From: Amycolatopsis regifaucium
GTDB lineage: Bacteria; Actinomycetota; Actinomycetes; Mycobacteriales; Pseudonocardiaceae
Length of the DNA: 64,000 bases
Direction of reading: 5' to 3'
Assembly: GCF_001613935.1 (NCBI RefSeq)
Contig: NZ_LQCI01000003.1
Location: 416,500-480,499, forward strand
Shown: positions 28,351 through 32,160 of the stretch, one piece after another
Position numbering within the stretch: position 1 is the first letter of the stretch
Layout of the letters: each line of letters starts with the position of its first letter
Translations under genes and position numbers: made by a program
Notes under the pieces: model-generated
Database searches by the model: none
Seen by the model: the letters and a program-made list of their open reading frames with translations, nothing else
Told to the model about the DNA's origin: nothing

Positions 28351-28680
28351 CCCTCGATTGTGGAGCCAAATTCGAACTAGTGCACGGTATCGATCGGGTG
28401 GATGATCATCACGCTCCGGCAGCCCGAACTTGCACGCATCACTCCGACGTAGGACCCCGATCGCCTCGGAAACGCTTAAGGATGATGCGGTCGAGTTCCG
28501 GGGGAACGAGGCCTGACGTCATTCATGCGCGCCCACTCCTCATGGAGCCCTCGCCTGGTGCGGGGCTCGGGCGGTCCCCATTAGGCCGAGGCGAGTTCGA
28601 GCGCCGTGGCTTTCTCGCCTCCGAGGGTGACGTCGTCCACCGGCCGATCGCGGCCCACCGGGGCTGGCTACGATCGTCAG
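28351..28680. other. Intergenic region between DUF222 gene and rsmA
   Basis: 330 bases with no gene I can support. It must hold the two divergent promoters. A TTCGAAC half-site near 28371 resembles half of an actinobacterial SOS box, but the other half is missing. No tRNA, no repeat and no clear hairpin were seen. Confidence 0.35.
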
Positions 28681-29517
28681 GTGACTGAACTGCTCGGGCC
28701 TGCGGAGATCAGGGCGTTGGCGGCCGAGCTGGACGTACGTCCGACCAAGAAGCTCGGCCAGAATTTCGTGCACGACCCGAACACCGTGCGCCGTATCGTC
28801 GACCTCTCGGGAGTCGGCGAAGAGGATGTCGTGCTGGAAGTCGGACCGGGGCTGGGCTCGTTGACGCTCGGTCTGCTCGCGACCGGTGCCAAGGTCGTCG
28901 CGGTCGAGATCGATCCCGTCCTGGCCGGGCGGCTGCCGCACACGGTGGCGGAGCGAGGTGGGGCCGACAGGCTGACGGTCGTCGGGGCGGACGCTCTGCG
29001 GATCAAGGCGGAGGACCTGCCCGAACGGCCGACGGCGCTTGTCGCGAATCTGCCGTACAACGTCGCCGTTCCTGTCGTTCTTCACCTGCTCGCCGAGCTG
29101 CCCTCGCTGACCAGCGGTCTCGTGATGGTCCAGACCGAGGTCGCGGACCGGATGGCCGCAGGGCCGGGAAGCCGGACTTACGGCGTGCCCAGCGTCAAGC
29201 TGGCGTGGTACGGGAAGGCGCGCAAAGTCGCCGCGGTGCCGCGATCGGTGTTCTGGCCTGTGCCGAATGTGGATTCCGCATTGGTCGCCTTCGAACGTGG
29301 CGACTTGGTGTGGTCCGTGGATCGGCAGCGGCTGTTCGCGGTCGTCGACGCCGCCTTCTCGCAGCGGCGAAAGACTTTGCGCGCGGCGTTGGCGTCATGG
29401 GCCGGTTCCGCCGAACGCGCGGGGGAGTTGCTCGAGAAGGCGGGTGTCGACCCCAAAGCTCGCGGCGAGCAGTTGGATGTTCACCAATTCGCTCGTATCG
29501 CTGCCGCGGCCGAGTGA
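28681..29517 (+). CDS. rsmA: 16S rRNA dimethyladenosine transferase
   Basis: 278 residues from the GTG at 28681; the frame is open upstream, but homologues start here. KsgA/RsmA motifs: [10 protein letters not shown] at 23-32, SAM-binding EVGPGLGS around 53-60, and catalytic NLPY at 123-126. It dimethylates A1518 and A1519 of 16S rRNA, the last steps of small-subunit maturation and the determinant of kasugamycin sensitivity. Its normal actinobacterial neighbours are rpfB and ispE. Here both sides carry an inserted gene. Confidence 0.95.
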
Positions 29518-29757: not shown

Positions 29758-29854
29758 AGTGAGCCATCCCGAGCGACTGAGAGACCTGGCTCGCCGAAGT
29801 CGCAGCAACCACCCTCCACAGGGCAGGTGCTACCGCCAGGACCGATGGAGGCTG
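29758..29854 (+). promoter_or_regulatory. SAM riboswitch (SAM-I/SAM-IV clan, S-box leader)
   Basis: The segment has the conserved order of S-box aptamers: P1 CCATC/GATGG (29764-29768 with 29844-29848), P2 GCGACT/AGTCGC with the internal kink-turn pattern GAGAGA...TGGC, the invariant GCAACC, a short P3 (CCCT/AGGG), AGGTGCTA, then the closing P1 strand. It lies about 210 bases before a MetN-like gene. It should bind S-adenosylmethionine and lower expression when SAM is plentiful. I cannot settle whether it is SAM-I or SAM-IV by eye. Confidence 0.78.
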
Positions 29855-29982
29855 TGCCTAATGAACAGGGTCACCCACCCGCTCCTGCTGACCAGGCGAC
29901 GTGTCGTCGATGAAGGTCGCCGCACGGTAAGTGCGTGTCGACGCTCCACCGTTACTGCCTGAGTCTTTCCCTTACCTCTGAA

Positions 29983-30004
29983 ACCCGTCCGGGTCTGGAC
30001 GGGT
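29983..30004 (+). terminator. Candidate expression-platform hairpin of the SAM riboswitch
   Basis: ACCCGTCC pairs with GGACGGGT across the loop GGGTCT, about 60 bases before the MetN-like start. No T-tract follows, so it may act on translation or as an actinobacterial U-less terminator. Confidence 0.35.
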
Positions 30005-30062
30005 AATCGGTGACGGTTGGCGCGCTCGAAAGAAGCGGCGCCCCATTCGCATGGAGCCTTTC

Positions 30063-31073
30063 GTGATCACTGTCGAAAACTTGTCCAAGTCCTTCCCCCT
30101 CAACGGAAATCCCGTCGTCGCCCTGCGCGACGTCAGCGTGGACATCCAAGCCGGCTCGCTGTTCGGAGTCGTCGGTCCGGCCGGCTCCGGCAAGTCCACC
30201 CTCGCTCGTTGCATCGGGCTGCAGGAGCGCCCTGACCGGGGTGTCGTCCGGCTCGACGGCCTCAACACCGGGACCCTGGACGGACGCCGCTTGCGCGAGA
30301 TCCGTCGTCAGGTCGGTGTCGTGAGCACCAAGCCGGAGCTGCTCGCGGAGCGCACCATCGCCGGAAACATCGCGTCACCGCTCGAACAGCTCGGCCTCGA
30401 CGGACCGCAGCGCCGGAACCGAGTGGGCAATCTGCTCGACCTGGTCGGCCTCACGCCGCGAGCAGGGCAACGGCCGGGTGAACTGTCCGAGGGGCAGCTG
30501 CGCCGAGTGGCGATCGCCAAGGCCTTGGCCGCCGGGCCGTCCGTGCTCCTGGCCGACGATCCGACCGCAGGTGTGCGGCCCGAGGAGTCCGGCGCGGTGT
30601 TGACCGTGCTCGACCGTGCGCGCGCCGAGCTCGGCGTGACCGTGCTGCTCACCACGCCTGACGCCGGAGTGGTGCGCCGTGTCTGCGATGACGTGGCGGT
30701 TCTCGAAGCCGGTGCGATCATCGAGCGGGGGACCGTGCTCGACTTGGTCTCCGACCCGAACAGCCGGACCGCGCAGGCGCTGCTTCCTCCGATCGAGACC
30801 AGCCGGGCTCAGGCCTCGAAGTACGACCGCGCGGTGGACGTCGTGCTTGTCGGCTTCGCTTCGGTCGGCGCCCTGCTGCCCGAGGCCGCCGGTCGCTTCG
30901 ACGTCGAACTCGCCACGATCGGGGGCGGTCTGACCCGCATCGGTGACACGCCGGTCGGCCGGTTCCGCCTCGGCGTGCGCGGTGAGCACGCGGACGCCGC
31001 GCTCGCCTGGATCGCCGAACGCGGTGGCCACGTGACCCACCCGGTTCGCGGACCGCAGGGCGTCGCCGCCTGA
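30063..31073 (+). CDS. MetN-like ABC ATPase with NIL domain, orphan and with altered catalytic residues
   Basis: 336 residues from the GTG at 30063, which has TGGAG six bases upstream; the ATG at 30051 has no ribosome site. The order is MetN-like: ATPase (1-230), linker, then a methionine-binding NIL domain (about 250-330). Walker A GPAGSGKST (38-46) is intact. By alignment with E. coli MetN, the Q-loop Gln is Thr89, the signature is LSEGQ (141-145), the catalytic Glu after Walker B is Asp166, and the switch His is Pro199. ATP hydrolysis should be weak or absent. No metI or metQ gene is adjacent. It may act as a methionine- or SAM-linked regulatory protein. Confidence 0.8.
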   Translation: MITVENLSKSFPLNGNPVVALRDVSVDIQAGSLFGVVGPAGSGKSTLARCIGLQERPDRGVVRLDGLNTGTLDGRRLREIRRQVGVVSTKPELLAERTIAGNIASPLEQLGLDGPQRRNRVGNLLDLVGLTPRAGQRPGELSEGQLRRVAIAKALAAGPSVLLADDPTAGVRPEESGAVLTVLDRARAELGVTVLLTTPDAGVVRRVCDDVAVLEAGAIIERGTVLDLVSDPNSRTAQALLPPIETSRAQASKYDRAVDVVLVGFASVGALLPEAAGRFDVELATIGGGLTRIGDTPVGRFRLGVRGEHADAALAWIAERGGHVTHPVRGPQGVAA

Positions 31074-31194: not shown

Positions 31195-32160
31195 GTGCTC
31201 GCCGTCGTACCGCCTCCAGTCACCGTCAGGGTTCCCGCCAAGGTCAACCTGCACTTGTCGGTCGGTGACGTACGTCCGGACGGCTACCACGAGCTGGTGA
31301 CCGTGTTCCAGGCGCTTTCCCTGACCGATGAGGTGACCGTGGCGGTCACCGAAGACCCGGGTGTCGAGGTCTATGGCGAGGGGGAAGGTGCCGTACCGAC
31401 CGGCGCCAACAACCTGGCGTGGAAGGCCGCGCAGGCCCTGGCGGCTCATGTGGGCAAGGCGGACGGTGAATCCAAGGTTCGCGTGGTGCTCCGCAAAGGC
31501 ATCCCGGTCGCCGGCGGGATGGCGGGGGGCAGCGCTGACGCGGCCGCGACCCTGGTCGGACTCGCGTCGCTGTGGAAACTCGACATCTCCCGCGACGAAC
31601 TGGCCGGTATCGCCGCCAAGCTCGGCAGCGACGTTCCCTTCGCGCTTTACGGCGGGACCGCGCTGGGGACAGGCCGAGGTGAGCAACTGGTTCCGGTCCT
31701 GTCGCGGCACACCTTCCACTGGGTATTGGCGTTCGACCAGCGTGGTCTTTCGACTCCGCGTGTGTTCGGCGAATTGGACAGGTTGCGGGAAGAGGGCAAC
31801 CCGCCGCGGATCGGTTCCCACACTCCGGTGGTCGAAGCGCTGGCGTCGGGTGACCCTCGGCAGCTGGCCCTTCTCCTCGGCAACGACCTGCAGGCGGCCG
31901 CCGTCTCGTTGCGTCCTGGACTGCGGCGCACCTTGCGGGCGGGGGTCAACGCGGGGGCACTCGCGGGTACCGTCTCCGGATCCGGGCCGACCTGCGCGTT
32001 CCTCTGCGCGGACGCCCAGTCGGCGGTCGAGGTCGCCGCGGAGTTGTCCGGTGCGGGAGTGTGCCGGACGGTTCGCGTCGCGCACGGGCCGGTTCCCGGC
32101 GCCCGGCTGGTCGGCGGGGATGACGCGCCGCGACCGGCGCCGCCTCGAGTACATGCGTGA
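31195..32160 (+). CDS. ispE: 4-diphosphocytidyl-2-C-methyl-D-erythritol kinase
   Basis: 321 residues from a GTG start. GHMP kinase family: N-terminal [12 protein letters not shown] (13-24) and ATP-binding glycine loop [15 protein letters not shown] around 104-118, then the SDVPF and GSGPT motifs. It phosphorylates CDP-methylerythritol in the MEP pathway for isoprenoid precursors. The next gene (ABC-F) follows after 67 bases on the same strand. In other actinobacteria ispE comes right after rsmA. Confidence 0.95.

Follow-up and report, generated by a model that had tools for sequence, protein, structure and literature searches.

An orphan MetN-like protein between ksgA and ispE in Amycolatopsis: a possible sensor or regulator behind a SAM riboswitch and a cysteine-codon leader peptide

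What keeps the gene for an importer ATPase in a genome when the genes for its transport partners are gone and the residues for hydrolysis have been replaced? The question is raised by a locus of Amycolatopsis regifaucium in a stretch of 64,000 nucleotides (contig NZ_LQCI01000003.1, positions 416,500 to 480,499 of the forward strand), which is called the window here and to which all positions refer unless another locus is named. Antibiotics in medical use come from Amycolatopsis, and many natural products have SAM or cysteine among their precursors. An earlier description of this DNA, referred to below as the sequence-only reading, had reported a gene of MetN order behind an S-box-type leader, with no metI or metQ beside it and with altered hydrolysis residues, and had suggested a regulatory or sensing role rather than transport.

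The MetN-like protein and its missing partners

The gene (30063–31073, plus strand) lies between ksgA (28606–29517, plus strand), the upstream neighbour that fixes the locus, and ispE (31195–32160, plus strand), both of them open reading frames in conserved synteny with relatives. The location given earlier, an rsmA–ispE locus, stands as a conserved site, and its rsmA is the gene called ksgA here. The likely translation start is the GTG at 30063 rather than the ATG at 30051 given by the ORF caller, because the GTG is preceded by a Shine-Dalgarno sequence, GGAG (30053–30056, plus strand), which is kept a few nucleotides 5′ of the GTG in aligned relatives. With this start the protein has 336 residues, and the numbering of Thr89, Asp166 and Pro199 is correct. 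Upstream, a SAM (S-box, SAM-I) riboswitch aptamer (RF00162; 29761–29851, plus strand) scores 51.7 bits in cmscan against a gathering score of 44.4. The protein itself has the MetN order of a nucleotide-binding domain (NBD) followed by a NIL domain, with Pfam matches to ABC_tran (E = 3.6e-27, above the cut-off) and NIL (E = 1.3e-8, 35 bits against a cut-off of 24). Both the S-box-type leader and the MetN order are thus borne out, and neither metI nor metQ occurs in the metN–ispE interval of the window, as had been reported.

The NCBIfam equivalog model for MetN (TIGR02314) gives the protein 200 bits against a cut-off of 499.7, and a motif-intact operonic relative also reaches just 270 bits. By sequence comparison, the best relatives among solved structures are E. 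coli MetN chains. An AlphaFold model built with 39 relatives (pLDDT 90.9) has the MetN fold; in a fold search with this model the nearest structure was MetN, matched over its full length (TM about 0.8, 35% identity), and 7z15 was also among the matches.

When the window protein is aligned with E. coli MetN and 78 close relatives, the Q-loop Gln is replaced by Thr89, the catalytic Glu by Asp166 and the switch His by Pro199. The signature reads LSEGQ rather than LSGGQ, its first Gly being gone and its closing GQ retained, and the D-loop SALD, which was not among the residues listed earlier, is gone as well. Walker A (GPAGSGKST) is intact, with the Lys and Ser of GSGKST present, and so is the Walker B Asp (LLADD). 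The three replacements, the LSEGQ signature and the intact Walker A had originally been read from an alignment made by eye; misalignment as their cause was rejected, since the computed alignment agrees, also across about 75 Amycolatopsis-type sequences. The joint loss of the hydrolysis motifs with the reading frame, the NIL domain and the riboswitch kept, as stated in the sequence-only reading, is likewise supported.

The protein resembles E. coli MetN of MetNIQ (3DHW, 3TUI, 6CVL) in its domain order, full-length fold, NIL domain and, at its ancestral locus, an operon with metI and metQ, but it differs in lacking metI and metQ and in the loss of the Q-loop, the signature Gly, the catalytic Glu, the D-loop and the switch His. 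Because these elements are gone, neither good hydrolysis nor coupling to a permease is expected. With the Walker A Lys and Ser and the Walker B Asp retained, the protein can probably still bind ATP, and Asp in the position of the catalytic Glu may leave weak hydrolysis.

To find partners for such a protein, genome-wide profile and query searches were run over 52 contigs (99.99% complete). The NIL domain gave a single match above threshold in the whole genome; a second, weak match (locus L010) was judged by its sequence to be a FabH-like enzyme and rejected. The earlier idea of unlinked metI and metQ genes was followed in the same way: the MetI query returned only matches at E = 7e-4 from the whole genome, and the single weak MetQ match in the genome (C3, 212 kb) was rejected as an SsuA-family sulfonate-binding protein. 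No partner or target of the window protein was found in these searches. Loss of the hydrolysis motifs together with the transport partners is accordingly the state that the sequences show. These results bear on the reading that the protein still hydrolyzes ATP, if slowly, on behalf of a permease or another machine, with Asp and other residues as substitutes. The Glu-to-Asp change is conservative, and the protein retains Walker A, the Walker B Asp and the closing GQ of the signature; however, Gln, the signature Gly, the D-loop Asp and His are lost in the same proteins, and the genome offered no permease candidate, so that we regard a working ATPase as very unlikely.

Origin and retention of the orphan gene

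The NIL gene is present in 79 of 80 Amycolatopsis genomes and occupies the ksgA–ispE site in every retrieved locus that covers both flanks, whereas a true MetQ occurs in just 2 of the 80, beside a second, intact MetN. Elsewhere in the family, a complete ksgA-metN-metI-metQ-ispE arrangement with intact motifs is found in Lentzea, Saccharothrix, Kutzneria, Actinosynnema, Actinoalloteichus, Streptoalloteichus and others. The operonic motifs read VPQG, LSGGQ, LADEPTSALDP and VTHD, and they are intact in all of the operonic sequences tabulated. A metN gene alone, without metI or metQ, is found in Amycolatopsis, Prauserella and about 12 other genus-level groups.

Judged from these sequences, ksgA-metNIQ-ispE is the ancestral locus in the Pseudonocardiaceae. 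On a tree of ksgA plus ispE from 62 loci, the state switches between orphan and operonic five or more times. Constraining the orphans to one all-orphan clade was rejected (lnL difference 309, p-AU 1.6e-46), and with it a single origin. The orphans of genus codes g6, g22 and g47 are nested within an operonic clade with starred support. The direction of change is not fixed by the tree alone; our reading, that metIQ was lost, follows from the intact motifs, which must be the ancestral form. The sequence-only reading had offered this gene as the window's best candidate for an undescribed system; the orphan state is real, but it is not unique to the window, having arisen repeatedly in the family.

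Decay of the motifs is graded among the orphans. Two recent ones (L159 and L089) are without metI and have all motifs present, L154 and L146 have lost some, and the Amycolatopsis orphans have lost all. Because L159 and L089 are still motif-intact, decay appears to come after the loss of metIQ. The tally of motifs covered 30 orphan sequences, with less than 88% identity inside each group and without the two recent motif-intact ones, and 15 operonic sequences chosen in the same way. The first signature Gly was lost in all 30 orphans, His in 29, Gln in 28 and Glu in 25 (Glu is kept in some, His in one and Gln in two), whereas the Walker A Lys and the Walker B Asp were each retained in 29/30 and all motif residues were invariant in 15/15 operonic sequences. 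A lineage-paired test of decay against orphan state yielded 3/4 informative pairs, too few for significance. It is rare to catch a pseudo-ATPase derived from a transporter subunit in the middle of its evolution. The present family has, at one chromosomal site, intact operons and recent, half-decayed and fully decayed yet constrained orphans, which makes the order of events testable.

Several related loci depart from this picture in other ways. L179 and L200 (genus code g40) have also lost the Walker A Lys (GTST), their Walker B reads AEE, and the riboswitch is retained. At L033, L039, L041 and L045 an MFS-efflux-like gene occupies the metI–metQ site in the metN–ispE interval, with a TetR-like regulator beside it in L033 and L045. 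A second, intact metQ-metN-metI set lies elsewhere in two Amycolatopsis genomes (G005 and G058), which are exceptions. Sets of this order with FQQ and THE motifs constitute a second importer type, found at L109 and L111 (in these two genomes) and at L144, L152, L160, L163 and L167, and this type may have replaced the ksgA-linked importer in some genomes.

A gene in this state could be a relic on its way out, metN having outlived metIQ and now drifting. Key motifs do vary among the orphans, decay follows loss as the motif-intact L159 and L089 indicate, and the orphan metN at L172 (1885–2750; g32) has a frame break 5′ of NIL, either a pseudogene or a sequencing error. However, the median dN/dS of orphan metN in three Amycolatopsis groups is 0.028, 0.091 and 0.070, next to 0.015, 0.107 and 0.067 for ispE and 0.067, 0.174 and 0.048 for ksgA in the same groups, and to 0.081 (Lentzea) and 0.071 (Saccharothrix) for operonic metN. 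Values of 0.03–0.09 in three species groups, close to those of ispE and of operonic metN, largely refute a relic; retention in nearly every Amycolatopsis genome also counts against one, and the riboswitch, the leader peptide described below and the Shine-Dalgarno sites of both leader and metN are retained throughout the related loci. Given strong purifying selection together with this retention, we do not take the orphan metN for a relic or pseudogene, a reading that now seems highly improbable.

The NIL domain is the most constrained part of the orphan, with dN/dS for NIL alone of 0.008, 0.051 and 0.018 in the three groups, and its identity is 0.80 in Amycolatopsis orphans vs 0.76 in operonic sequences. 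Between genera, identity drops in the orphan Q-loop, D-loop, signature and H-loop, and the Q-loop is the least conserved orphan motif (0.50/0.42 vs 0.96). This pattern matters for the reading in which the protein forms the degenerate half of an ABC heterodimer, together with a catalytically intact NBD and with a permease encoded elsewhere. Type I exporters are known to include some with a degenerate site (PMC7756269), ABC-ATPase-like matches in the genome number well over 100, and Walker A and the Walker B Asp are retained. But the Q-loop that suffers most is the motif that contacts the permease, MetI and MetQ were not found genome-wide, and no ABC gene is linked in the metN–ispE interval of orphan loci, so a heterodimer appears quite unlikely.

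A possible role for the protein

The reading that we favour, with about even confidence, is that the orphan MetN is a soluble NBD–NIL sensor, or a regulator or clamp, kept after metNIQ lost its transporter. A regulatory role is what we infer from the loss of the transport partners combined with retention of the gene; this role, like the binding of ATP and methionine, the absence of ATPase activity and the two-input logic described below, is proposed from sequence. In this history, a metNIQ importer operon stood between ksgA and ispE, metI and metQ were lost with metN as the sole survivor, and the NBD–NIL subunit would then have been remodelled into a soluble protein that binds ATP, hydrolyzes it poorly and is uncoupled from a permease. 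The NIL domain would read an intracellular sulfur metabolite, the NBD dimer could hold another protein in an ATP-dependent clamp, much as MalK holds a regulator or PhnK/PhnL act on a soluble enzyme, and the protein would switch between open and closed dimers.

MalK and other NBDs double as regulators, and PhnK/PhnL act in C–P lyase; all of these keep ATPase activity. The analogy would lie in an ABC ATPase with a role beyond pumping and, for MalK, an extra C-terminal domain, whereas the window protein differs in that its transporter is gone and its hydrolysis residues are lost. The NIL ligand is uncertain because the position of E. coli Asn295, which we take to be a methionine-site residue of MetN, is Ala in the window protein, although it varies among Asn, Ala and Ser in operonic relatives too, many of which have Ala or Ser. 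In E. coli MetN, methionine binds at the C2/NIL dimer interface and props the NBDs open (PMC10710835).

The PhnK/PhnL comparison also lends itself to a different emphasis, in which the protein clamps a soluble sulfur-metabolism enzyme in an ATP-dependent way and is neither sensor nor regulator. There are soluble ABC dimers that partner an enzyme (7z15, noted above, is one) and the strong constraint on NIL would suit this role, but no sulfur-metabolism enzyme gene is linked at the locus and the searches found no partner; we consider an enzyme clamp unlikely. Returning to the sensor or regulator, the recurrence of the orphan state points to several separate recruitments of a transporter part for such a role in Amycolatopsis and its relatives. 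That MetN was repeatedly and selectively retained after the loss of MetI and MetQ also suggests that it already served this second function within the operon.

The SAM riboswitch and the leader peptide

Between the aptamer and metN lies a feature that the sequence-only reading had overlooked, a cysteine-attenuator-like leader peptide ORF of 33 aa (29861–29962, plus strand; MNRVTHPLLLTRRRVVDEGRRTVSACRRSTVTA). The aptamer exceeds the gathering score in all 60 related loci scanned with Rfam, orphan and operonic alike. At 29844–29851 (plus strand), GATGGAGG forms the P1 3′ strand and contains the Shine-Dalgarno sequence of the leader ORF (GGAGG); in a tally of related loci, GATGGAG was found in 160/160 and GATGGAGG in 135, and the leader start codon lies 3–11 nt 3′ of GATGGAG(G) among the loci listed. 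Since the leader Shine-Dalgarno sequence is within the P1 3′ strand, SAM binding should block leader translation. The locus is in this respect different from SAM-I riboswitches (RF00162), as the Shine-Dalgarno site in P1 belongs to a leader peptide and not to the metabolic gene.

The leader ORF is found directly 3′ of the riboswitch in 166/166 loci. Its core is LTRRRVVDxxRRxxxAC, generalized as L[TV]xRR[VC][VI]DxxRRxxxxC, with a few loci deviating at one core position, and the final Cys codon is invariant across the 166. Entropy at codon positions 1, 2 and 3 is 0.52, 0.31 and 1.38 bits (102 distinct DNA cores), and this third-position-rich variation is the expected mark of a translated sequence. 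A conserved small ORF with Cys codons before a sulfur gene, as seen in all 166 loci, is a feature of cysteine-attenuation leaders. The actinobacterial leader families Ms5788A and cis_reg_atten share an RRxVDxxR...C core, but the metN leaders differ in being sub-threshold, in having one to three Cys codons and in being coupled to a SAM riboswitch: relatives of the leader reach at best 20 of 45 bits for Ms5788A and 13.4 of 27 bits for cis_reg_atten in NCBIfam, and the window leader peptide itself matches neither. Cysteine-rich uORFs 5′ of mycobacterial cysA2 have been proposed as cysteine attenuators (PMC4633059). In S. lividans, a leader with Cys codons, metL, lies 5′ of metNIQ (PMC8079986). 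The latter is alike as a Cys-codon leader peptide before metN and differs in its sequence (MSTTSDRTPATEATTTPGARCMCRRMCAF), in being leaderless and in that a SAM riboswitch is not reported there.

In the leader–metN interval, an inverted repeat, ACCCGTCC-GGGTCT-GGACGGGT (29983–30004, plus strand), could form an attenuator stem, although one without a U run. A stem of at least 6 bp occurs in this interval in 69 of 76 Amycolatopsis-type loci, with varying position and sequence. The fold of the whole 5′ region is not unusually stable (z −0.72), and structural claims are therefore limited to the aptamer.

The two elements could act in series. SAM would close P1 and hide the leader Shine-Dalgarno site; at low SAM the leader would be translated, and its conserved Cys codon would let the ribosome report the cysteine supply before metN is expressed. 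The MetN-like protein would then be produced at low SAM, and cysteine would be the second signal. More broadly, and more tentatively than for the sensor itself, there may be a recurrent route by which the ATPase of an ABC importer, carrying a sensor domain, discards both transporter and hydrolysis and becomes a stand-alone pseudo-ATPase sulfur sensor, under a leader that reads SAM and then cysteine in series. The leader is a possible natural two-input gate, and whether a SAM-I riboswitch can gate the translation of an attenuator peptide would become testable. A limited literature search, weak as evidence, gave no report of a cysteine-type leader paired with a SAM riboswitch, none connecting such a riboswitch with Amycolatopsis and none of an orphan MetN.

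Elsewhere the two elements are found apart. The only other SAM riboswitch of the genome (L012 1501–1633; C11:155914–156046) precedes a threonine-synthase-like gene, and no leader of the metN kind was seen there. Similar leaders (LTxRRAVDxCRVRSSLC) occur here, as well as in further actinobacterial families, before sulfurtransferase and DUF4395-type genes, the gene types being read from sequence, and none of the non-metN leaders tested has a SAM riboswitch. The second leader of this genome (L210 1477–1641, minus strand; C12 near 372780), LTQRRAVDLCRVRSSLC, is followed by genes for a DUF4395-like protein and a rhodanese-like sulfurtransferase.
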